Part shown: in pieces, positions 3,273 through 21,793 of the stretch | Position numbering within the stretch: the stretch's first letter is position 1 | Layout of the letters: each line of letters begins with the position of its first letter | Assembly (NCBI GenBank): GCA_016932965.1 | Contig: JAFGBW010000250.1 | Location: forward strand, 1-23,211 | Reading direction: 5' to 3' | Length of the DNA: 23,211 nt | DNA from: Candidatus Auribacterota bacterium | GTDB lineage: Bacteria > Auribacterota > JAFGBW01 | The notes under the pieces: model-generated | What the model was told of the DNA's origin: nothing | Databases searched by the model: none | What the model saw: only the letters and a program-made list of their open reading frames with translations | Translations under genes and position numbers: made by a program

Positions 3273-3869
3273 ATGGTGACGCAATTCTATTTTATCAGGC
3301 ATGGGGAAACAACATCGAACGCAGAAAAAAGGTATTGCGGTTTTCTGGATGAAGGATTAAGCGAAAAAGGCATGCTTCAGGCTGAAAAACTGCATGCGCG
3401 AATGATCCACCAATCCTTTGACGGGATTTATTCCAGTGACCGGAAACGGGCCATTCAGACCGCCGGCATTGTTTTTAAAAATTCATCGATCAGTCCGATT
3501 CCGGACCTAAGGGAAATGCATTTTGGTGTCTTTGAGGGATTGAACAGCCATGAAATCCGGAAAAAATATAAATCCATTTATGATTCCTGGGTTCATGATC
3601 CTTACAGGGTCAGAATTCCTGAAGCTGAAACCATGAATCAGTTCGAAAAACGAATCGTCAAATCCATCAAAATAATTCTATCTTCCCATCTGGACAAGAC
3701 AGTCGCTGTTGTCTGTCATGGCGGGACGATCAGTGTGCTCCTTAATTATTTTTTAAAAACAAAAGATTTCTGGAAACATCTGCCCGGTTCAGCGAGCCTA
3801 AACATCGTGGAGTGTGAAAACGACTACAATGAATTAAAAGTATTCAACGACACATCTCATCTTAAATGA
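3273..3869 (+). CDS. cobC: Histidine phosphatase family protein, likely alpha-ribazole-5'-phosphate phosphatase (CobC-like)
   Basis: A 198-residue member of the branch-1 histidine phosphatases. FIRHGET at residues 7-13 contains the phosphate-accepting His10. YSSDRKRAIQTA at about 53-64 holds the second arginine, LREMHFGVFEG the catalytic glutamate, and VCHGGT the second catalytic His149. These features and the length fit CobC, which dephosphorylates alpha-ribazole phosphate (or cobalamin phosphate) in the nucleotide-loop step of B12 synthesis and salvage. Phosphoglycerate mutase-like enzymes of other specificity look similar. The direct abutment to the ABC transporter genes, with stop and start codons touching, is the main reason to prefer CobC and to read the transporter as a cobalamin importer. 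Confidence 0.75.
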   Translation: MVTQFYFIRHGETTSNAEKRYCGFLDEGLSEKGMLQAEKLHARMIHQSFDGIYSSDRKRAIQTAGIVFKNSSISPIPDLREMHFGVFEGLNSHEIRKKYKSIYDSWVHDPYRVRIPEAETMNQFEKRIVKSIKIILSSHLDKTVAVVCHGGTISVLLNYFLKTKDFWKHLPGSASLNIVECENDYNELKVFNDTSHLK

Positions 3870-3872
3870 GAG

Positions 3873-4680
3873 TTATGCGGATTGCCTAAAAGGAATCTGA
3901 TCCCATCCGATGGAGGTCTCATACCCGATTGAAAGACTCAGTTCACGAACTAAATTGTCCTGTTGACGGACAAAAACATCGTATTCTGCCTGAGGGCTGC
4001 CCTGTTTTTCCCAGAATCTACCATTCAGCAAAGTCCCTTCTCCTGTAATGATCCGGGAGAGTAAAAACCTTAAAAATATCAATACCTTCAAATAATCGCG
4101 CCAATTCCCTGGCGCGATCAGCTGTTTTTTGGACAGTTTTTTCTTCCGTATCGTCTCGTCTCTTTGAAAATCCTGTTGTTGGAGCTAACGCTGATCCAGC
4201 TTGTTGTCTATCTGACTCTAAAATTGGCTCGTAATGCTGTGTTATGAAGGCGGACTCATTCCAGAACACCGTTGAACCGATGGATTTTTCGTTCTTAATG
4301 AGGGATCGTATCCTTATTTCCGGATTCCATCGCATCAATTTAAAAATGCAGAGCCAGAAGATCCAGCAGATATCCGGGAAGAGGAAAAAAAATCTTCTCC
4401 CCTGAAACAACCTGCTGAAGCAATTCAGACGGCATACTGGCATAAGGTCCTTTATCAAAATAAGGATGAGGGGAAAATATCCGCTAACAACATACGGGAA
4501 AACTTTTTGCATCCATCTGTTTATATGCTCCTGAATTCTTAACACTTGATCTAAAGAAAGAACTGTTCCTGAAAACTGCATTTGTATCAACGGATCATGA
4601 ATATGATCAGCCGGCGCATCGGAGTTTTTGATATCCAAAGACTTTTTTCTGTAGACTCGTGTAAACGAATCTCCCCCCAA
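3873..4680 (-). pseudogene. Unrecognised gene broken by three single-base homopolymer indels
   Basis: The minus strand holds a protein-like reading split between two frames. It can be rejoined by adding one base to the run at 4470-4473 and removing one from the A-runs at 4342-4346 and 4063-4067 (plus-strand view). The repaired protein reads, in pieces, LSLDQVLRIQEHINRWMQ, then PYFDKGPYASMPSELLQQVV, GEKIFFPLPGYLLDLLAL, TTGFSKRRDDTEEKTVQ, RARELARLFEGIDIFKV, NLVRELSLSIGYETSIGW, and ends at 3873. I do not recognise the family; there is no signal peptide or clear motif. The N-terminus is uncertain: the open frame reaches TTG at 4680, but it overlaps the end of the methyltransferase relic, and ATG at 4581 may be the true start. 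It converges on the CobC-like gene with 3 bases between. Confidence 0.6.
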
Positions 4681-5198
4681 CCGAAAGGGGAATCAATCCA
4701 TTTCCTTATTTCTGCCAGATCCTAAGTTTGAAATATTTTATACTGAAGAAGGCATGTATCCATTTTTGAGGATCTGAAATAAGGCGCGGTTGCTATTACT
4801 CTGCCGCCTTTTTTGAGCACCCTGAAGAATTCCCTGAGGATATTTTCAGGTGTAATGACATGCTCATGTATATCGGTTGCGATGATAAGGTCAAACTATT
4901 CATCGCATGCAGGAATATTTGCGGCATCTGCGATCCAGCGCTCCCTGTAGCCCCTGTTGATGATCGATTCTTTGTCAGAAAGAAAATTTTCCGGACAGAT
5001 GTCCAGTCCAATCAAATAATTGTTGTCTGAGAAAACTCAGCCGATGGGCACTTCCTTGCAGCCTACGTCAAGAATATTCAGGTTTTTCAAAGAGCTGAAA
5101 CTGTCAAGGATTATCGATTGGGGATGAAACTATTTTTTTAAAAAAAACGGACCGGACTCCGGATAAAGATACAAAGAATATCCGATCAGGATTTTCAT
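4587..5198 (-). pseudogene. Class I SAM-dependent methyltransferase with four in-frame stop codons
   Basis: A single minus-strand frame starts at ATG 5198 and overlaps the neuC stop as ATGA, the classic coupled start. It runs MKILIGYSLYLYPESGPFFL, then a stop (5130-5132), then NLNILDVGCKE (motif I of Rossmann methyltransferases) and a stop (5037-5039). Next come LIGLDICPENF (motif II-like), a stop (4896-4898), FDLIIATD, ILREFFRVLKKGGRVIATAP (motif III-like) and a stop (4722-4724). It probably ends at 4587. There is no indel even across an 8T-7A run. Each stop could come from one transition in a Trp, Gln or Arg codon. It would have methylated a sugar or lipid carrier in the polysaccharide pathway. 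As it stands it cannot make a full protein. Confidence 0.75.
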
Positions 5199-6367
5199 TC
5201 TTTGAAACGTTTCTCTATGCAAAGTTTCACCGTGGAAAGAATATCCGCAATTTTTTTGCCGGCATTTCCATCGCCATAAAGTGCTGAACTTTCGTAACGC
5301 CCGCCTTTTTTCAGATGTTTCTGTACAGCCTGGATGATTTCCTGTGAGGAATGACCTACATCGATCACGTTTTCGGCACGATCCCTTCCCTGCTGACGGT
5401 TTCCGATGTTTACCGTCGGAACCCCGAGATACGAGCATTCTCGGATCCCCACCGAAGAATTTCCCACAATGCACCGCGCTTTCATGAGCACCGCAAGAAA
5501 ATCCTCGGCGGAAAGGTTCAGGAAAAAATGGAAATTTTCCGGATGATATTTCTCTCTTAGTATCCGGATGGCCTTGGAAGTCATGTCTGAACCGGCATCA
5601 ATGTTCGGCCACAACACAATCGCGGGGATTTTCATTTCATACACAGCGGCGAGAGTCTCCTGCATCTGAGTGTAGGCGTCTTTGAATTCCGTGGTCACCG
5701 GATGCTGCATGACAATGAGGAAATCCTTGTCGATGTCCACCCGTCCGCTTGTCCCGAAATAATGGGAATACAGATACTCTGTATTCATGTAGCTGAAATT
5801 GTTTTTCACCTTTGCCGCCAGATCAATGGAAGGGCATCCCGTGATGAAAATGGAGGACTCGTCTTCACCCATGAGCCTCACCCTTTTTGCCGCCTGCTGG
5901 TTGGAAACAAAATGCAGAGAAGACAGCTTGGTGACCGCATGCCGGACTTTTTCATCAATAGACCCTGAAATCTCCCCGCCCTGTACATGGGCGACCGGAA
6001 TATTCAGATACGATGCGGCAATCGCAGTGGAAATGGTTTCAAACCGGTCTGCAATCGAGATGACAATATCCGGCTTGTAATTATCAAAAATGGTGGCCAG
6101 TTCCATCACGCCGATCCCCACGCTTTTTGCCATGGTTGTCGGGTTTTCCCCTTCAATGATCATGTAAACTTTTTCATGAATGGTGAACCCGTCTTTTTCC
6201 ATGACCTCCGCAGCATTTCCGAATTTGGAAAGAACCAAGGAGGCGGCTCCGATGAGAAACAGTTCCAGTTCCGGGTGTTCCCGGATGGATTTCAAAACAG
6301 TCTTAATACGGGCGTAACTAGCCCTGGAAGTGACAACAACAGCTATTTTTCTCTTCATGTTCAGCAT
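5195..6367 (-). CDS. neuC: UDP-N-acetylglucosamine 2-epimerase, hydrolysing (NeuC/LegG-like)
   Basis: A complete 390-residue GT-B-like epimerase. ADRFET at residues 106-111, then HVQGGEISGSIDEKVRHAVT at about 127-146, and GNSSVGIRE near residue 300 are hallmarks of the NeuC subgroup rather than WecB. The enzyme converts UDP- or GDP-GlcNAc (or a derivative) to free ManNAc or its analogue, the committed step towards sialic or legionaminic acid. No synthase (NeuB) or cytidylyltransferase (NeuA) is in the window, so the final sugar is unknown. The ATG at 6367 is taken as the start; a second ATG lies at 6358. It lies between two broken genes, yet shows no damage itself. Confidence 0.88.
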   Translation of the reverse strand: MLNMKRKIAVVVTSRASYARIKTVLKSIREHPELELFLIGAASLVLSKFGNAAEVMEKDGFTIHEKVYMIIEGENPTTMAKSVGIGVMELATIFDNYKPDIVISIADRFETISTAIAASYLNIPVAHVQGGEISGSIDEKVRHAVTKLSSLHFVSNQQAAKRVRLMGEDESSIFITGCPSIDLAAKVKNNFSYMNTEYLYSHYFGTSGRVDIDKDFLIVMQHPVTTEFKDAYTQMQETLAAVYEMKIPAIVLWPNIDAGSDMTSKAIRILREKYHPENFHFFLNLSAEDFLAVLMKARCIVGNSSVGIRECSYLGVPTVNIGNRQQGRDRAENVIDVGHSSQEIIQAVQKHLKKGGRYESSALYGDGNAGKKIADILSTVKLCIEKRFKE

Positions 6368-6379
6368 GATGGCTTCTCG

Positions 6380-7926
6380 TTATTTTTTTAAATATCCTGC
6401 AAGGTATGCAGCCAGGGCATCATAGTCTTTTTCTATTTCCTCCGGCCCGAGTTCTAACATTTTTGCATCAGAACGATTGAACAGAGCGGAATAATAATTC
6501 ACATGGACCAATTCCTTCATCACAGCTGCAACATAATGAATCAGCGCTTCTTTGTCATAGAAAAAATGATCCAGCAGCATCTTCACCGCCCGGGCAAGTT
6601 CAAAGGGGTTTTGAACTTTTTGTATCATGGTGTCCGGAAAAATAGAAAAGGGACATTCACTGACATCCCCCATGGTGATGGCGGGAATCCCCTTGAGAAG
6701 GTATTCAAAAGCCACTGAATTCGAAATGGCAAGAGTCATGCTGGCATGCTCCAGAATGGAATAGGCGGATAAATCCGGATGCACCAAGATGACATTGGGA
6801 ATTTCCAGAAGTTTCTGGTAGTAGGGAGGCGTTTCTTTTCCCCCAGCAGACCGGGTGTTCCTTAACCAGCCGTTTCATGTGCACCGGGATGCTCTGACTC
6901 ATGAGTCTTAAGGTTTCAATCCGGTTCATGAAGGGACTTGCAGAAACCAGAAGGGATACTTCCGGTTCCATGTGCAGCGGACAGAAAACATATTCCAGGC
7001 TTTTCAGCTGCTCCGCAGTGATAAAATCTGCTGAAAACCTTTTTTTGATATAAAAGGTTTTTCAGGGGTTTTATCAGACGCTTATAGAGAAGGGGTAAAG
7101 GACTCCGCCCGTGGCCTGCAGGTCATGGCGCAAATCCCCTGTCCGGGGATGGATTTCTTTTATGATAACATTGAAAAACCCCTTCAGGGGATTTTTCTGA
7201 ACCTGTTTTTTTCCTTTTTCCTGCTGACCGTTCCCTTATAAACGGGTTTGGCCTGGGCGGCCTTTTCAACAAACCCGGCGGGCCTCCCTGAGGGCGGGGT
7301 CTGTTTCGGGAGATTCCGTACCTTTCCGGTATTCGGCATACCGGCCCGCTATCTGCGGGGGAAGGCCGAAAAAACTCGTGCTGACCCGGACGCAGTTTTT
7401 TATTTTCATCGAACGGATATTTAAAAAAGGGGTGTTTTTGTAGCGGGCGCACAGATAATACAGATAATCGACAAAGGTAACCGGTGCATGATTCACAATG
7501 AAATCCGGACGGGCTTCATTCAGAAAGGAATCCATCCGCCGAAGGGCGTGCTGCAGAATTTTAAGCATTTCCTCATGCGTGAACCCAGACCGGTAATCGG
7601 AATGCAATGGGGCGTATTCCCCGAGATAAAGCCGCCTGTCTACAACCAGGTCGCTTCACAGGAAGGGGGTGGCCAGTTTTTTTCATAGCTCTTGATAAGG
7701 GCCTCAACCACCCGCATCTTTTCAGTCAGCACCCCGGATGATGTCCCATTCTTTACAGAACCGGAAAAGATTCCATCTCCGGGTTATCCCTGCACCACTC
7801 TGCATAACAGGCGGAATCCGAAATATAAAAAACGGTTTTTTCCAGCTGCACATACCTCGAAAGATGGCGCCTCAGGGAATAAAACATCCTGAAGGTCAGT
7901 CCTTGTCCGACAAATAAAACATTCAT
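6380..7926 (-). pseudogene. Capsular polysaccharide biosynthesis protein, about 515 codons, broken by about eight frameshifts
   Basis: It starts at ATG 7926 after a good ribosome site (AGGA) with MNVLFVGQGLTFRMFYSLRR, and can be followed in shifting minus-strand frames to a TAA at 6380. Key pieces are MHSDYRSGFTHEEMLKILQH and PDFIVNHAPVTFVDYLYYL. Further on are LKSLEYVFCPLHMEPEVSLL, HMKRLVKEHP and the C-terminal SAYSILEHASMTLAISNSV then AFEYLLKGIPAITMGD. The CPLHxEPE, VKEHP and SxxxEYLLKGxPAI signatures fit the capsule-synthesis (KpsC/KpsS-related) transferases. Breaks lie near 7755, 7700, 7650, 7270, 7190, 7090, the A-run 7040-7046 and the run 6840-6844. The gene sits 24 bases after asnB in the same operon. 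It is almost certainly non-functional if the sequence is correct. Confidence 0.78.
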
Positions 7927-7950
7927 TTTTTTCCTGCCTTGATCATATTT

Positions 7951-9771
7951 TCAGAACGAAACGGCTTCGCTCAGGTCTTTGGACGGGATCCCGGGACTCG
8001 GAGGATTCTTCATCCAAGCGGATGAATCCATAAACATCCTGAACCACAATTCCAGATTCACGTATTGCCAGAGATAAATGGAATTTCCCTCCGGAGAATC
8101 ACAAAAAATGCGAAAGGCTCTGAAGATTTTTTTCGCGTTCCAAAAGGGTCTTTCGCGAAAGGAAGAGGAGGTGAAAATTTCTTCCATTTCCCGCCTCAGG
8201 CATCCCCTGAACCATTCATGCTGCGGATTCACCACCGCTCTTTTGGAGGCGTTCCGGATTTTTTCCGGGAGCCTTGATTTAAACGCCTCCCGCATCAGGT
8301 ATTTTGTCTGGCTGTCGCTGATTTTATATTGGTCCGGAAGCAGCATGCAGAACTCCACAACACGGTAATCCAGAAAAGGGACCCTTAATTCCTTGCCGAA
8401 AGCCATGGTGGCCCGATCATTGAAACAAAGGACCCTGGGTAATTTTGTAAACCGCAGATCCCGGTACTGCATGTTTCTGAGCGCAGAAGAAAAGGGCTTT
8501 GGACAAACCCACGAAGTATCTGAAAACCGGCCTGTGAATTCAGGATTCAGTAAATCCGCACGCAAAAATGAAGTCCCGTCCTGATAGAGATTTTCATTGC
8601 GCGGCTGTGGATTACAGGAAAGAAAGGATTTATAGTACTCATAACCTGCTAAAATCTCGTCCCCGCCCTGGCCTTCAAGAAGCACTTTGACGTTATTCCC
8701 TCTTTCCATCCTATTCAGGCCGAAATAGGCGATCGTTGCAAGCCCTCCATAGGGAGCCTCCATGTGATACAGCAGTTTTTCCGCATCGTCCCAGAATGAG
8801 GCGGAAGAAAACCCGGCAGTATGAAACCGCCAGGGATGCCGTCTTGCCTTTAATTCCTCCACATGGATTGCCTCATCATATTTTGGATCGTTGAAAACAA
8901 CTGTGTAGGCATTGAGTGCTGCAGGGGTTTCCAGAAGCTCGTCAAACAGGAGGAGAAGCACCGAAGAATCCAGTCCTCCGCTCAGATGCAGCCCGATGGG
9001 GACATCCGAGCGCAGCCTGTATTTCACCGATTCCGTCAGAAGGGAAAGAAATTTTTCTTTTGCCTCATCAAACGGGATCCGCTGCAGCTCTTCATTTTCC
9101 TTTGGAATATCCCAGTAGGATTTCAATTCCATTGTTCCGGAATGTTTATGAAAAATCAGGGAGGTTCCGGGGGAAAGCGAAGCTATATCCTTGAAAAAAG
9201 TGCGACTGGAATGGTGATACCTGCCGTGGAAAAAATATTCATAAATGGCATATTCATCCGCAGCCGGTTTGACAAGACCGCTGGCCAGTATGGATTTTAT
9301 TTCAGAGGCAAAAACTAGGGTGCTGCCGTCAAAAAAATAATAAAAGGGTTTCACTCCCAGCCTGTCCCGGCTGCAGAAGAGTTTATTATTCTTGTTGTCC
9401 CAGAGGGCAAAGGCAAACATCCCGTTGAATTTTGTAACGCACTCTTCACCCCATTTCACATAGGCAGCAAGGATGACTTCCGTGTCGGTTTTGGTCACGA
9501 AAGCATATTCTTCCTTTAATTCCTCCCTGAGCTCCGGGTAATTATAGATTTCGCCGTTAAAAACGAGGATCAGCTGTTTTTTTTCAAAAACCATGGGCTG
9601 ACGGCCTGCGGAGGATAAATCTATGATGCTCAGGCGGCGATGCCCTAAAGAGACATCCTTTTTCATAAAGATTCCGCCGTCATCAGGCCCGCGGTAAGAC
9701 AAAAGGTCTGTCATCCGCAGAAAATGCGCCCTGTCCATCTGCCGGCCGATCACACCAGTGATACCGCACAT
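7951..9771 (-). CDS. asnB: Asparagine synthase (glutamine-hydrolysing) family amidotransferase
   Basis: A 606-residue protein starting MCGITGVIG, where Cys2 is the glutaminase nucleophile exposed after Met removal. Upstream in-frame codons run into the previous gene, so ATG 9771 is chosen; AGGG lies about 11 bases before it. The class II amidotransferase domain (about 2-190) includes SYRGPDDGG, LSIIDLS and FNGEIYNYPELR. The synthetase domain has the ATP-binding SGGLDSS at about 264-270 and later LEGQGGDEILAGYEYY. It hydrolyses glutamine and uses the ammonia to amidate a carboxylate activated by ATP. In a polysaccharide block the target may be a uronic acid or nonulosonate rather than aspartate, as known for such AsnB-like enzymes in O-antigen loci. 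That substrate is inference. Confidence 0.88.
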   Translation of the reverse strand: MCGITGVIGRQMDRAHFLRMTDLLSYRGPDDGGIFMKKDVSLGHRRLSIIDLSSAGRQPMVFEKKQLILVFNGEIYNYPELREELKEEYAFVTKTDTEVILAAYVKWGEECVTKFNGMFAFALWDNKNNKLFCSRDRLGVKPFYYFFDGSTLVFASEIKSILASGLVKPAADEYAIYEYFFHGRYHHSSRTFFKDIASLSPGTSLIFHKHSGTMELKSYWDIPKENEELQRIPFDEAKEKFLSLLTESVKYRLRSDVPIGLHLSGGLDSSVLLLLFDELLETPAALNAYTVVFNDPKYDEAIHVEELKARRHPWRFHTAGFSSASFWDDAEKLLYHMEAPYGGLATIAYFGLNRMERGNNVKVLLEGQGGDEILAGYEYYKSFLSCNPQPRNENLYQDGTSFLRADLLNPEFTGRFSDTSWVCPKPFSSALRNMQYRDLRFTKLPRVLCFNDRATMAFGKELRVPFLDYRVVEFCMLLPDQYKISDSQTKYLMREAFKSRLPEKIRNASKRAVVNPQHEWFRGCLRREMEEIFTSSSFRERPFWNAKKIFRAFRIFCDSPEGNSIYLWQYVNLELWFRMFMDSSAWMKNPPSPGIPSKDLSEAVSF

Positions 9772-9784
9772 GAGTTTTAACCCT

Positions 9785-10768
9785 TTACTTGTTTCCCTTG
9801 ACAGCCCACACCCGGTGATGTCCCTGGCCTGCGATGCGTTCCATCGCCTGTTCATGGGAAATAAGACCCTGTTTTTCCTCCCTGGCGGTATCGGCAACCG
9901 TGTCAATCACAGCCTGGCACAGATTTTTTCCGTGTCGGAACAGATTGACCGGTGCAATGTTGTACTCGACCCCTGAAGAAAATATCTTCTGAAACGAGGC
10001 CAGATCCTTTTCAAACTCTTCGAGAGATGCTTCATGGTCCCATTTGTCCCTGGGCATTCTTCTTATTTTTTCAAACCCGCGCACTTCGAGCATTTTTTCC
10101 ATGCGTTCCCAGGAATAAAAATCAAGGGCCGGGCAGAAAAGATCATCCAGAAAGGTCCTGCGCTTATTGGCCGGAAGATTCCCTCTGGCAATCGCCTCCT
10201 CAACCGCGGAAAGCCCGATGTCATGGGCGAGTTTCCTCAGAATCTCTATGAGGGGCCAGCGCATGCCGCCGTTCGCATAGACCAGGAGATAAAAAGAGCC
10301 GCCGGGTTTTAAAACCCTGGTCAGTTCATCAAGCGCCTTGTCCGGATCGTCGGTGATCATGAGGACTCCGGCAAACCAGATGCAGTCAAAATAGTTGTCT
10401 TCAAAGGGGATATCGAGAACCGAGGCCTTCTGAAAATTGGCCTGGGTGATGCCGAGGCCTTTCGCCCTGCGCGCTGCATCTTTAAGACCCTGGTCGCCCA
10501 AATCAATACCCTGGACTTCAGAAGCCCCGAGAGAGGCCATGGCAATGCTGTTTCTCCCGCCGCCGCAGCCGGCATCAAGACATTTTTTATTCTTAAAGAA
10601 ATCCCCTGGTATTTTCCAGTCCGCCAGACGTTTATAAAACAATTCCACGGATTCCTTGAATAACACCTCATCATACTGGGGCCAGAGGTTCTCAAAGAGA
10701 GAACCCGTTTTATTTTCAAGGGTTTCGCGTCTCTTACTTCCGGTCGTATCTGATTTTGTTTTTTTCAT
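9785..10768 (-). CDS. Class I SAM-dependent methyltransferase
   Basis: A 327-residue protein with a Rossmann-fold methyltransferase core. CLDAGCGGGRNS at about residues 63-74 is the SAM-binding motif I, EVQGIDLG (about 84-91) supplies the acidic motif II, and the segment around DCIWFAGVLMITDDPDKAL followed by RVLKPGGSFYLLVYA matches motifs IV to VI of the type-11/UbiE-like group. A strong ribosome site AAGGAAGG precedes the ATG at 10768. The C-terminal 130 residues are outside the core and may bind the substrate. The gene ends 13 bases before asnB. A role in methylating a sugar or lipid-linked intermediate fits the operon, but the substrate cannot be read from the sequence. Confidence 0.82.
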   Translation of the reverse strand: MKKTKSDTTGSKRRETLENKTGSLFENLWPQYDEVLFKESVELFYKRLADWKIPGDFFKNKKCLDAGCGGGRNSIAMASLGASEVQGIDLGDQGLKDAARRAKGLGITQANFQKASVLDIPFEDNYFDCIWFAGVLMITDDPDKALDELTRVLKPGGSFYLLVYANGGMRWPLIEILRKLAHDIGLSAVEEAIARGNLPANKRRTFLDDLFCPALDFYSWERMEKMLEVRGFEKIRRMPRDKWDHEASLEEFEKDLASFQKIFSSGVEYNIAPVNLFRHGKNLCQAVIDTVADTAREEKQGLISHEQAMERIAGQGHHRVWAVKGNK

Positions 10769-10811
10769 ATAAAAACCTTCCTTCAGCTTTATGAATGATT
10801 CCGTTGCAATT

Positions 10812-12041
10812 TCAATTAATGATCCTGTTTTTTACTTTTACCAGAAAAGGCCGGACCTGATACACCCATATCCTCATCAATTCCCTGAAAAAATGCCAGG
10901 AAAGATTGTCTTTTTTTTGCCAGTCCGCGGCCTTCATTCCCTGAAGGTGCTGCATCGCAGCTTCAAAGGATTTCAGGGCCAGATCCGCTGATTCCCTGAT
11001 TCCGTCGAAAAGCGCAAAGTGGTATTTGGCAAAGGTCACGGTATTGAAGACCCAGGTGAGTTTTGTCGCCAGAACCGACGGAGCATAGGTGGAAAAACTG
11101 CAAACCTGTTTTCCGCGGCAGAATGCCATAAGATCACGGCTGATTTCAAGGGCCTTATCACGAACAAGGGCGCCCTGATAAAAATAAAGCGGTTTAACAT
11201 AGGGGAATGCTTTTTTCCTGTGGAGCTGAAAAATGTAGCTGTGAAAATCAAAATAATGGTTTGGCCGGGCCATTAAACAATACTGCCACAGGTAATGGAC
11301 TTCAGGGCACTTTTCAGTATCGTTTTCATCAAACTCCCAGTACAGGTTGAATCCTGCATGATTACAGCCGTTATACCCGTAAAAAAATCCGTCCGGATTC
11401 ACCTTCGGAATAACATGAAAAACCGTATCGGCATATTTCTTCCGGTTCTCAGGAAGCGAAAGATGCTCCATGATCTTTTCTGTAGCGATGGTATCGCCTT
11501 CAGGAAAATGAAAACCCGAGGAAATCATCACATTCAGGGATTCGGAGGAAGGTTCGCCATAACGGTAACATGAAAATTCCCTGCACCCGATGCTTTTGCC
11601 GTTGGGGACCCTCACGGCTTTTCCCATTCCGGCGAGATACTCAAAAAGCTTTTGAAGTCTTTCATGGGAGCGGTAATAGAAATTCGCGATATAAAGGGTC
11701 TGCCCGGCTTCCAGGGTTAACGGGATGTGATATTTTTTAAAGGTATCTGTCTTTGAAAAAATCTTTAACCGGTGAAATTCATTCTGCGTATTTTCAGCGG
11801 CATATAGCAGCGCATCATAAACCATTTCCTCTTCCACGGATTCACAGCCGAAGGAAATGTAAAGGGACTCTGACGTATTCCCAGAATTTTTGAGATCAAA
11901 AGCGAAATGGCAGCTGTAATCATGCGTCTTGCCATCAGACTGGGTTGCGGTCTCTTCACGCATGGCCATGTAAATATTGGCCCACTTAATCCGGTAACGT
12001 CCCGGGATGGAGCCGCTGAAATCCGATTTTATCTCGATCAT
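10812..12041 (-). CDS. M14-family zinc carboxypeptidase-like protein with CCP-type N-terminal domain
   Basis: Residues 1-110 (MIEIKSDFSGSIPGRYRIK) resemble the beta-sandwich that precedes the catalytic domain in cytosolic carboxypeptidase-like M14 proteins. The catalytic part shows GFHFPEGDT with the HxxE zinc pair (about His178, Glu181) and PKVNPDGFFYGYNG. It continues with the substrate-binding stretch AGFNLYWEF and the third ligand in NHYFDFHSYIF (about His267). The usual C-terminal general-base glutamate is not obvious: VFNTVTFAKYHF lies where it is expected. The enzyme may cleave C-terminal residues or act as a deacylase. I chose ATG 12041; the frame stays open to a TTG at 12110. It is transcribed with the methyltransferase 43 bases downstream. 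Confidence 0.72.
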   Translation of the reverse strand: MIEIKSDFSGSIPGRYRIKWANIYMAMREETATQSDGKTHDYSCHFAFDLKNSGNTSESLYISFGCESVEEEMVYDALLYAAENTQNEFHRLKIFSKTDTFKKYHIPLTLEAGQTLYIANFYYRSHERLQKLFEYLAGMGKAVRVPNGKSIGCREFSCYRYGEPSSESLNVMISSGFHFPEGDTIATEKIMEHLSLPENRKKYADTVFHVIPKVNPDGFFYGYNGCNHAGFNLYWEFDENDTEKCPEVHYLWQYCLMARPNHYFDFHSYIFQLHRKKAFPYVKPLYFYQGALVRDKALEISRDLMAFCRGKQVCSFSTYAPSVLATKLTWVFNTVTFAKYHFALFDGIRESADLALKSFEAAMQHLQGMKAADWQKKDNLSWHFFRELMRIWVYQVRPFLVKVKNRIIN

Positions 12042-12176
12042 ATTGTCATCTGTCTGATAGAGCCCTCTCACGACCTGTTTATCCCGCGAAATTGGACCCC
12101 CCGTGGTCAAGCCATGAGATGACGCAACGGAACGGATACTGCAGCTGTGCAGAGGGCTTTAAGTTTAAAATTGTTC

Positions 12177-12205
12177 TTTGTATGGAATAAGGGGCTGAAG
12201 GTCAA
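12177..12205 (-). promoter_or_regulatory. Possible sigma70-type promoter for the M14 gene
   Basis: On the minus strand TTGACC is followed after 17 bases by TACAAA, a fair match to -35 and -10 boxes, about 140 bases upstream of the M14 start. It overlaps the gap between the broken membrane-protein gene and the M14 gene. This is a pattern match only, in an AT-rich region. Confidence 0.25.
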
Positions 12206-12209
12206 TATA

Positions 12210-12958
12210 TTATTGAGCCTGACCACAGACCCGATTCTGCAGACGGAAAAAATATTCCCAGGCAGCGGACAATATCTTATTGGAACTGATGAGCGTGTTC
12301 AGAAGGGCGGTATCCTGCTCATTAAAAGGATGGTATCGGAGTAAAATCAGGCGATAAAACACCAGGAAAAGGAAATTCAAAGTAAGCAGACTCCAAAGGG
12401 AATGGCAGAAAGTTCCGGGAATATAAAAAACGAAAAGCAATATTCCGTTTACAATGAAATATCTTGTATACTCCGAAAAACGGTAACAGATATCTTCATC
12501 TTTTTTCATCCGGTAATACACCAGAAAATTTTTCAGCAGATCCCCAAAGGTTGTGACCAGAGCCACCGTAATCTCAGCAGGAAGCCGTCTGGATGTATCA
12601 AAAGACACAAAATCCAAATAGAGTTCAAGAGAAGTCTTTCCCTGTTGAAAGGCCCTGCTTATGGCATCAAAAACCATCAAAGTCTCTGTGTCTTCAACCA
12701 TGGCATCGCCGTGCTCATATGAAAGCATAAGTTTTGCGACTATAGCCGGATTTTCAAGGATGATTGTCTGAATACGCGCGTGCTGATCTGAAGTTCCATT
12801 ATAATAAACTAATAACTCACAAATCCTTTAATAAGTTCTTTCATTGAATAAGGATAAAATTCCTTAGGAGTGATTGTATTTACAGCCTCAACGAGCGAAT
12901 TTACATAATAATTGTCATTGAACCTCCCTGCAGCAAGCTGCAGGGAATCTTCGTTCAT
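12210..12958 (-). pseudogene. Unrecognised protein with two C-terminal membrane helices, one frameshift
   Basis: A first frame ends in KEFYPYSMKELIKGFVSY and a second continues ICELLVYYNGTSDQHARIQT then LENPAIVAKLMLSYEHGDA. Adding one base to the A-run (TTT at 12827-12829 on the plus strand) joins them into about 250 residues ending at 12210. The C-terminal part has two hydrophobic helices in YFIVNGILLFVFYIPG and LLTLNFLFLVFYRLIL. I do not recognise the family; the soluble N-terminal part is helical and charged. The 5' end is crowded by a REP-like palindrome whose translation (LQLAAG) lies in the apparent N-terminus, so the true start may be lost. It is the first gene of the minus-strand operon-like row. 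Confidence 0.55.
12926..12945. repeat. REP-like perfect palindrome (9-bp arms, 2-base loop)
   Basis: CCCTGCAGC-AA-GCTGCAGGG followed by GGAAT-type context. The element has the form of short palindromic repeats scattered in genomes that carry REP-associated transposases. It falls at the apparent 5' end of the frameshifted membrane protein gene. Confidence 0.6.
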
Positions 12959-12984
12959 AAGGAATTGTTCTTTTAATGGCCTAA

Positions 12985-13004
12985 CCCCGCAGCAAGCAGC
13001 GAGG
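12985..13004. repeat. Second, degenerate REP-like palindrome
   Basis: CCCCGCAGC-AA-GCAGCGAGG shares the core GCAGCAAGC and the trailing GGAAT with the copy 59 bases away, but its arms match at only 7 of 9 positions. The pair therefore looks like two related elements at different stages of drift. Confidence 0.5.
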
Positions 13005-13219
13005 AATGCGGCCTGCGAATTCAAACAAGTTATAACATAAAAAATCATACAGACTGGCGATTCCCGCAATTTATTTTTTTCTGAAAAAATATAGTGTTAA
13101 AGTTGGTAACGGAGGATATGGAAAACAGAGTTCTTAGAGACATATCTTTTAAGAGGAGTTGAATCGGATTTGAAAAGATTCGGTAAAAACAGAGTTATCA
13201 ATTAAAAGGAACTACCCTA

Positions 13220-13868
13220 TCAGTTCATCAGGTATTTCAACGGCAATTCCTCCTGACAATTCTGGAAATCATCTAAACACGGCTCAAAGACTGTGCCCTT
13301 GATCTCCGGTTCTTCCGGCGGCGAAGCCCTGAATGATGATTCCTGCTCTTCCCATAATTTCAGATGCCGCAATATCTTCTCAACTACAGCACGATGATCA
13401 ATAAACGCAATGATTCTCATGAACCCTCCGCAGTTCGGACATTCCAATGGATCTAACTCCCAAACCTTTTTGATCAGCTCCCGCCACTTTTAAGACAAAA
13501 CTTATCTTGGCCCATATTCTGAAACATCAATCACTTCTATTCCTGATTCTTTTGCTATTTCAGCTTTTTCCTGAAGAATGGATTTTGCCTTCATCCCACG
13601 GCATTTGTTGCTGTAACGGCAATCATATCGCACCATCTGGAATCCTTTATCCGATATATGGTTCGTCACTGCCGCTATAAAATCCAGGGCCGTGAATACC
13701 TCAAAGTTCCAACGGGTCTTTACGCTCGGCTTGGACCGGTAAATCACAGTCCCGGTCTTCTCAAAATACAGCATCTTCTCTTCCTTGAAAGGGTTCCGGA
13801 TAATGTACTGGGCTATCCGCTCCAGACATTCTCACGTTGCGGTTATAGAGTAAGGAGGATTTTTATCC
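13220..13868 (-). pseudogene. IS91-family (Y2) transposase remnant, C-terminal part
   Basis: One minus-strand frame reads CLERIAQYIIRNPFKEEKML, FEKTGTVIYRSKPSVKTRW, LDFIAAVTNHISDKGFQMVR and YDCRYSNKCRGM. It ends with the zinc-ribbon-like PLECPNCGGFMRIIAFIDHR and VVEKILRHLKLWEE. These strings match the C-terminal half of IS91/IS801-type transposases as I know them, including the IPDKGFQ-like and YSN motifs. In-frame stops lie at 13832-13834 (just after a probable small deletion), 13502-13504 and 13490-13492. The catalytic N-terminal half with the HUH residues is missing. It is a dead element beside the polysaccharide block and may mark how the block arrived. Confidence 0.8.
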
Positions 13869-14036
13869 GTATATAAATAATTTCAAAAACTTATTTCCGG
13901 CGCCTCTTAATTTATAACATTTTGAGGGAAAACGCCTTCCAATATAGAAGGCTTGATTACAAAAAAACATGACAACTGAATTTTATTATCGCGAAATACA
14001 AAAAAATGAGTTAAAGGGAATAAAATTTACCATTGT

Positions 14037-14048: not shown

Positions 14049-15713
14049 TTGAAATTACTTACAGACATAAGGACTTATCTCACCCTGGGTTTTTCAATTC
14101 TTTTTTTCGCAGGATTGGGACGGATACCTCTCATGGAGCCGGATGAAGGCAGATACCTGGAGATACCCAGGGAAATGATCCTGACCGGCGATTATGTATT
14201 ACCCCATTTAAACGGCGTATTGTATTTTGAGAAACCCCCTCTTTATTACTGGCTGAACGTTTTATCCATCAGGATTTGGGGACTGAACGAATTTGGAGCC
14301 CGTTTCTGGAACGCTCTATTCGGCCTGTTGGGTCTTGGAATCGCCTGGTTTCTCGGAAAATCCATGAAAGGAGAAAAAACCGGTCTGTACTCTGTTCTCA
14401 TTCTTGGCACCACTCCTTTGTATTTCCTATTGTCCAGAATCAACATCATTGATATGGCATTGAGTTTTTTCCTGAATCTGGCTCTGTTATTCTTCTGGAT
14501 TGGATGTCAGAATCCTGAACGTTCGGGAAAAAAACTGGCCTGGAATCTCATGTTTATATTCTGCGGCATGGCTGTCATGACCAAAGGGCTGATCGGGATG
14601 GTTCTGCCCGGAGCAATTATTGTTCTTTTTATGATCATCACCGGAAAATGGAACCTCTTAAAAGATATGCCTTTTATCACCGGCATTCTTCTTTTTCTCT
14701 GTATCGTTCTTCCCTGGCATATCCTGGCTGCACGGCGGAATGAGGACTTTCTGTATTTTTATCTGGTTCGGGAACATTTCCTGCGCTATGCCACCTCTAT
14801 CGCTAAGAGACAGGAACCGTTGTGGTTTTTTTTTCCGGTTATAATGATCGGATTCCTTCCCTGGTCCTGCTTGTTTTTTTCTGCGGCCGGTACCTTAAAA
14901 AAAATATCTTTCGATTCGATCAGAGAGAATACAGGGAATCTTTTTTTATCTCTCTGGGCCGGGATTATTTTTCTCTTCTTTTCCCTCTCTCAATCCAAGC
15001 TGATCCCGTATATTCTTCCTGCTGTTTTACCTTTTTCCATTCTCCTTGCAGGAGCATTTAATCGGATCACTAAAAAAATGAAATGGGACAAGCCGTCCAG
15101 GATTGGCATTGGATTTTCCTCTTTATTTGTTTTATTGTTCGGAATGGCAGGAAGTTATGCAGGTTCAGGACAATTAAAAAATTATCCGGGTTTTGATGTT
15201 TTTTCCCCCGTATTATTCTTACTTGGATTCCTGATTGCAGTGTTATCGCTGTGGATTTTGATCCGGCATGCTGCCTGGCAGCCGGAAAAATGGCTCTTCA
15301 TTAATTTCATTCTTTCTCTTTTCCTTTTAATCATGGCTTTAAATGCAGCCATGCCTATCGCAGAGGCCAGGACTTCAAAAGCATTCACGGAACAGCTAAA
15401 AACAATCGTAAAAGAGGAAGACGAATTATACGGTTTTCATTACTATCCGCAAAGCTACCCCGTATACAGGGGACAGCTGATTGACCTGGCCGGATTCCGC
15501 GGTGAACTGGAATTCGGTATATCCAAACTGACAAGAGAAGAAAGAACGAAACGTTTTCCCTTCATCAGGGAGTTTAAAAAAATATGGAATTCAGAAAAAA
15601 GAATTTTCCTGATCGTTAAAGACACCTGGCTGTCCCATCTGAAAAAAGAAGGATTTTCTCATTATAAAATTCACTGTCAAAAGAATTCCCTTTATCTGAT
15701 CAGCAATCATTAA
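14049..15713 (+). CDS. Glycosyltransferase family 39 (ArnT/PMT-like) membrane protein
   Basis: A 554-residue polytopic protein. EPDEGRYLEIPREM at residues 30-43 in the first external loop carries the Asp-Glu pair shared by ArnT and protein mannosyltransferases. It is followed by YFEKPPLYYWLN and a long row of hydrophobic helices, then a soluble C-terminal part from about residue 430. Family members transfer a sugar from a polyprenyl-phosphate donor to lipid A, protein or glycan on the outer face of the inner membrane. Lipid A aminoarabinose transfer is possible, but no arn genes are visible, so the donor is unknown. It starts with TTG at 14049 behind GGAG. The gene follows the IS91 relic and converges on treT. 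Confidence 0.85.
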   Translation: MKLLTDIRTYLTLGFSILFFAGLGRIPLMEPDEGRYLEIPREMILTGDYVLPHLNGVLYFEKPPLYYWLNVLSIRIWGLNEFGARFWNALFGLLGLGIAWFLGKSMKGEKTGLYSVLILGTTPLYFLLSRINIIDMALSFFLNLALLFFWIGCQNPERSGKKLAWNLMFIFCGMAVMTKGLIGMVLPGAIIVLFMIITGKWNLLKDMPFITGILLFLCIVLPWHILAARRNEDFLYFYLVREHFLRYATSIAKRQEPLWFFFPVIMIGFLPWSCLFFSAAGTLKKISFDSIRENTGNLFLSLWAGIIFLFFSLSQSKLIPYILPAVLPFSILLAGAFNRITKKMKWDKPSRIGIGFSSLFVLLFGMAGSYAGSGQLKNYPGFDVFSPVLFLLGFLIAVLSLWILIRHAAWQPEKWLFINFILSLFLLIMALNAAMPIAEARTSKAFTEQLKTIVKEEDELYGFHYYPQSYPVYRGQLIDLAGFRGELEFGISKLTREERTKRFPFIREFKKIWNSEKRIFLIVKDTWLSHLKKEGFSHYKIHCQKNSLYLISNH

Positions 15714-21431: not shown

Positions 21432-21793
21432 GAATACATTTCCTTATAAAAATAATGGATAGGAGAATCATAGTCAGTTACCTTCATCAGAGACTACAGG
21501 CTTAGAATACGTATCAGCTTTAAGCCTCTTTGTATGAACCATTCAAAGCGGCATGATAATCAATGATATTCTTAAAATATTTTTTTCACCACGGAGGACA
21601 CGCACGAAGGAAGCAAGCGAAAGGCCGGTGATTTGAGATTTGAAATTTAAAATTCATCATACCTACAGGCTAACTGACTCCCTCCGTGAACTCCGTGGTG
21701 AGTTTTCCTCCCTCCACTTCGCCTGGATTATAATGATTCTTATATTTTATAATAGAGCAGAAATTTATCCAGCCTTTTGGTTCCAACAGGGCT
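21432..21793. other. Intergenic gap holding an inverted repeat
   Basis: No gene was supported here. It contains a 7-bp stem pair at 21498-21537, the CACCACGGAG inverted pair described separately, a simple run ATTTGAGATTTGAAATTTAA near 21633-21652, and AT-rich sequence. It separates two minus-strand genes, so it should include the GT4 promoter. Confidence 0.5.
21586..21701. repeat. Inverted repeat with TCACCACGGAG arms
   Basis: TCACCACGGAG at 21586-21596 pairs with CTCCGTGGTGA at 21691-21701, 94 bases apart. The right arm also reads CTCCGTGAACTCCGTGGTG, an internally repeated CTCCGTG unit. Such sequences recur as intergenic repeats in environmental genomes; whether it is a mobile miniature element is not shown. 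Confidence 0.5.

Follow-up and report, generated by a model that had tools for sequence, protein, structure and literature searches.

Gene clusters for nonulosonic acids (sialic, legionaminic and pseudaminic acid) combine NeuC, NeuB and NeuA with a flippase and transferases. Decaying polysaccharide or O-antigen islands of bacteria typically contain a mobile remnant, are pseudogenised in part and are patchily distributed. The stretch of DNA analyzed here (the window) is contig C36 in its full length of 23.2 kb, from a draft genome of 3.14 Mb (300 contigs, 92.6% complete), and it carries an island with features of both. Most probably, what decays here is the second copy of a surface-glycan cassette of nonulosonic-acid (sialic-acid-like) type. 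An intact version is found on contig C161 of the same genome, and at least the neuC of the island is probably of Omnitrophota origin. From the decaying islands described in other bacteria the island shows no difference in principle; here an intact sister cassette is present in the same genome. Compared with known nonulosonic-acid clusters, the window NeuC passes the NeuC_NnaA family model, and C161 supplies NeuB, NeuA, a flippase and a Capsule_synth-type transferase. The differences are that no NeuB or NeuA homologue was found in the window, that the NeuB of C161 is short (276 aa), and that a D-2-hydroxyacid dehydrogenase gene stands between NeuC and NeuB.

Layout of the island and its intact sister cassette

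Between cobC (plus strand, end at 3869) and a GT39/ArnT-like gene (plus strand, from 14049), positions 3874-13875 contain minus-strand genes only. In minus-strand order these are an IS91-type relic, debris, a flippase remnant, an M14-like gene, a methyltransferase gene, AsnB, a Capsule_synth-type transferase pseudogene, NeuC, a 2-hydroxyacid dehydrogenase stub, a methyltransferase pseudogene and again debris (Table 1). The coding debris at 12570-13170, like that at the other end, could not be assigned to a family. A preliminary description had placed an all-minus-strand island here between plus-strand blocks, and the gene map bears out both its coordinates and its orientation. The genes that it had taken as intact (NeuC, AsnB, methyltransferase, M14-like) all have open frames, and those that it had taken as broken are disrupted without exception: the transferase, the second methyltransferase, the flippase, the debris and the IS91-type relic.

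Table 1. Features of the island and of the two genes that border it; positions are those of the window.
Feature	Position	Strand	Basis
cobC-like histidine phosphatase	3273..3869	+	Pfam His_Phos_1; closes left flank, preceded by genes for FecCD and an ABC ATPase
Degenerate coding debris	3874..4640	-	Six-frame reading and hmmscan, without family match
Methyltransferase pseudogene	4640..5080 (about)	-	Methyltransf_11, E 2.6e-12, read across stops
D-2-hydroxyacid dehydrogenase stub (first ~16 codons)	5145..5198	-	blastn to C161 ends at 5158; tblastn 1-40 at 45%
neuC, hydrolysing UDP-GlcNAc 2-epimerase, intact	5195..6367	-	Likely ATG 6358 or 6367; TIGR03568 NeuC_NnaA
Capsule_synth-family glycosyltransferase pseudogene	6389..7926	-	8 frameshifts and one in-frame TGA vs intact C161 homologue
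asnB-type glutamine amidotransferase, intact	7951..9771	-	Asn_synthase 1.7e-66, GATase_7; TIGR01536 434 bits (cut-off 267)
Class I SAM methyltransferase, intact	9785..10768	-	Methyltransf_11 2.6e-23
M14-like zinc hydrolase, intact frame	10812..12041	-	36% to C161 M14 protein
Wzx-type flippase, C-terminal remnant	12255..12566	-	42% over residues 402-505 of 518 of intact C161 flippase
IS91-family transposase relic, C-terminal third	13219..13875	-	NF033538 positions 251-354 of 356, E 1.2e-9
GT39/ArnT-like glycosyltransferase	14049..15713	+	PMT_2, PMT, Arnt_C; opens right flank

The order of genes around cobC and GT39 is not conserved in order-level relatives, the nearest genome compared being from another family. 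In one genome of the same order (G001), cobC adjoins cobU-cobT-cobS and nonulosonic-acid genes are absent there. The idea that the island splits a cobalamin operon found no support and was dropped; cobU-cobT-cobS are grouped on contig C43. Searches of the window for tRNA genes and Rfam families gave no match, and the island borders have no direct repeat exceeding 9 bases, so that a tRNA gene and flanking repeats as signs of integration are missing. Elsewhere in the window, between two minus-strand genes, an imperfect 33-base inverted repeat was observed at 21586-21701 (CACGGAG-type arms, 73% complementary, 50-base loop); it is REP-like and without Rfam match.

Among the four open genes, NeuC is full-length: its residues 6-377 align to positions 1-365 of TIGR03568 with 384 bits (cut-off 236), and the protein is predicted from its family to release ManNAc or an analogue from a UDP-sugar. 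The frame of AsnB is given from its ATG; the listed frame, from a TTG, extends to 9906. Its best paralogues in the genome are only 36-42% identical, and the best match of the intact methyltransferase is at 28%. Since neither has a close paralogue in the genome, these two genes are not redundant.

The cassette on C161 is an intact run of genes for a GT4 glycosyltransferase, flippase, Capsule_synth transferase, radical SAM protein, M14 protein, NeuC, 2-hydroxyacid dehydrogenase, NeuB, NeuA, methyltransferase and a membrane glycosyltransferase-like protein. Except for the methyltransferase, every cassette gene that is missing or broken in the window has an intact homologue in it. Identities between the window and C161 are 82% for NeuC, 56% for the transferase (frameshift-aware alignment; the C161 homologue matches PF05159), 42% for the surviving part of the flippase and 36% for M14. 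Because identity is low for M14 and the flippase, the two cassettes are not simple duplicates and may be separate acquisitions sharing a NeuC. The genome contains four NeuB genes, one on C161 and three elsewhere. The C161 protein (L013:3337-4167) aligns to positions 2-260 of a 329-position model. It and a 297-aa NeuB of an Omnitrophota relative (L044:11809-12702) align only to the synthase domain, appear to be without the C-terminal SAF domain, and are both paired with a NeuC of the clade that includes the window and C161 copies.

The M14-like proteins of both cassettes resemble M14 metallocarboxypeptidases (CCP-like, 4a37, 3l2n) in that HxPE, the later His zinc motif and NPDG are conserved and the N-terminal domain is of similar length; the C161 protein (L013:6307-7548) matches PF00246 and solved M14 structures. 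The zinc ligands H201, E204 and H290, that is, an HxxE and a later His, are conserved in the two proteins, the window protein reading HxPE...FDFH. They differ from the known enzymes in lacking the classical carboxylate clamp, as the Arg and Asn-Arg positions are Gly, Tyr and Trp in the C161 protein and are equally replaced in that of the window. In the other genomes of the 44-genome host phylum set, no match to these M14-like proteins was found below E 1e-4. An AlphaFold model (two-sequence alignment) had a pLDDT of 35 and was unusable. It is conceivable, though rather doubtful, that both proteins are zinc amidohydrolases which trim or deacylate a nonulosonic-acid glycan, and not carboxypeptidases. 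If this is true, they would be a new group of glycan-tailoring enzymes on the M14 fold.

Kinds of damage and their age

Three independent kinds of damage, namely deletion, frameshift and nonsense mutation, are present in the island, which bears out the earlier reading of decay. In the transferase pseudogene, nine stops were first counted; most of them vanish once frameshifts are allowed, and one is left. The resulting pattern is indel-heavy, with eight frameshifts, a single nonsense codon and no excess of dN. Several of the frameshifts fall in homopolymers of A, T or C; some could be assembly errors. The methyltransferase pseudogene has in-frame stops at 5039, 4898 and 4724. Downstream of NeuC, similarity between the window and C161 extends into the dehydrogenase for some 40 bases, as far as 5158; the stub may mark the breakpoint of a deletion of a segment that would have held the dehydrogenase, NeuB and NeuA. 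At the other end of the cassette, only the last fifth of the flippase survives. NeuB, NeuA, the radical SAM gene and the dehydrogenase beyond its first codons are all absent from the window, and NeuC stands there without the NeuB and NeuA that accompany it on C161. The preliminary description had proposed that the capsule transferase step was selectively lost. This is not what was found: the four genes just named are missing, and the flippase and one methyltransferase are missing or broken as well. Since several steps are gone, the loss is not selective for the transferase.

The decay is recent, because dN of the transferase to its C161 homologue (0.315, range 0.28-0.37) is not above the value of about 0.37 which, scaled from NeuC, is predicted for a gene that is still functional. 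For NeuC itself, dN between the window and C161 is 0.125 with dS saturated, and the gene shows strong past constraint. In the tree, the branch of the window NeuC (0.056) is shorter than that of the C161 copy (0.13); therefore, no relaxation is shown by NeuC.

Origin of the cassette

The window and C161 copies of NeuC are sisters (97/95). The clade that contains them (100/100) is otherwise made up of sequences from six Omnitrophota genomes, while the NeuCs of the order and phylum to which the host belongs form a separate clade, also at 100/100. The phylogeny was made for NeuC alone, and it is for NeuC that gene tree and species tree conflict. The host is probably no member of Omnitrophota itself, since 44 species represent its phylum and the 384 Omnitrophota genomes are a sample of a larger set. 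Because both copies nest in the Omnitrophota clade, away from the NeuC of the host phylum, a horizontal origin of NeuC is indicated, and the tree supports a gain of the gene from outside the host phylum; its direction and date are what we infer. The horizontal gain proposed in the preliminary description thus finds support in the phylogeny and, more weakly, in composition.

The closest named relative, at 73%, is a marine glass-biofilm MAG of the Omnitrophota, in which genes for a transferase, NeuC, NeuA and NeuB are adjacent. In the Omnitrophota relatives generally, a NeuC of this clade has NeuB, NeuA or both nearby. One of these relatives (L044:4398-12702) has two consecutive nonulosonic-acid sets, an ordinary NeuA-NeuC-NeuB and then transferase-NeuC-NeuA-NeuB; in the first set, NeuC is a fusion protein of 720 aa with an added domain that resembles NAD-dependent epimerases. 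In a plasmid collection, matches to NeuC were at most 45% identical and those to M14 at most 27%. In the library searched, no paper was found that connects Omnitrophota to sialic or nonulosonic acids.

As to composition, the core of the island (5195-12110) has a GC content of 0.475, compared with 0.429 ± 0.018 in genome windows of the same length, 1 in 232 of which is as high. The raised GC claimed earlier therefore stands for the core; however, the broken ends of the island are at 0.41-0.42 and codon usage is host-like, the four open genes being ordinary for the genome (26th-67th percentile). Given ordinary codon usage despite the high GC, the cassette is not clearly foreign in composition. 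The idea that codon usage points to a recent gain was dropped on the same ground.

Alternative readings and meaning of the island

The C-terminal zinc-ribbon region of the IS91-type relic matches NF033538 and NF052416, as in rolling-circle elements of the IS91/ISCR kind. As a fragment it scores below the curated full-length cut-off of NF033538, and its PF04986 (Y2_Tnp) match, the only one in the genome, is above cut-off, so that by sequence it is an IS91/Y2 relic. It differs from such elements in having no catalytic Y2 HUH domain and no functional frame, with stops at 13834, 13504 and 13492. Transposition of IS91 proceeds from oriIS to terIS, the latter being located 5' of the gene for the transposase (PMC13393415). 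In the relic, the 5' side is turned towards the GT39 gene and the 3' (oriIS) side towards the island. The presence of a transposase relic at the island edge might suggest that an IS91-type element brought the island by one-ended rolling-circle transposition. This is very unlikely: read-through past terIS would have captured the GT39 flank, and one-ended capture is not indicated because the island is on the oriIS side. Moreover, the element is truncated and the sole copy in the genome, and the borders lack a direct repeat of more than 9 bases. A causal role of the relic in bringing the island is not supported, and we take it as a mark of a disturbed site.

It might also be argued that part of the damage, mainly the frameshifts of the transferase, stems from errors in the consensus of a metagenome assembly that is fragmented, and that the real gene is intact. 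The frameshifts regain frame, several are in homopolymers, the transferase has no dN excess, and the genome is in 300 contigs. Even so, this reading is improbable, if somewhat less so than delivery by IS91. The genes on both sides of the transferase are clean. The four open genes, with approximately 1720 codons between them, have zero disruptions versus 9 in about 520 codons of the transferase, and at the transferase rate the probability of such a result is about 1e-13; therefore, uniform sequencing error cannot explain the pattern. Nor can homopolymer errors account for the nonsense codons that interrupt the methyltransferase and transposase pseudogenes, or for the deletions of NeuB/NeuA and of the flippase body. 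The same count of disruptions, together with the short branch of NeuC and the lack of close paralogues of AsnB and the methyltransferase, can be read in another way, namely that the four open genes are a working decoration module retained under selection, which acts in trans on the glycan of C161, only redundant genes having been lost. We consider this possible, and the best of the three alternatives, but still not likely, as NeuC and M14 have homologues on C161 and the decay is recent, so that in this one genome the order of loss could be due to chance.

With a decaying second cassette as the preferred reading, the following course of events can be proposed. As the phylogeny shows, a cassette of such kind, or at least neuC, is shared with Omnitrophota, and it was presumably from their gene pool that the lineage acquired it. 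From the gene families, NeuC of the once whole version would have made an N-acetylmannosamine-type precursor, which NeuB and NeuA would then have condensed and activated. The Capsule_synth-type transferase and the Wzx flippase would have served in building and exporting the glycan, and AsnB, the methyltransferases and the M14-like enzyme in decorating it. Deletion then took NeuB and NeuA together with the greater part of both the dehydrogenase and the flippase, while the transferase and one methyltransferase were inactivated by indels and stops. On its own, the window copy is no longer able to produce its glycan. The four open genes may either be used with the C161 cassette and the other NeuB loci, or be as yet unhit.

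Taken together, the island is a case of ordinary gain and loss of surface-glycan genes, the broad decay of a redundant cassette being a known kind of event. It changes no general picture; it illustrates clearly, on a small scale, how surface glycans turn over in an uncultured lineage, with a cross-phylum neuC and two versions of a cassette, the redundant one of which is early in decay.
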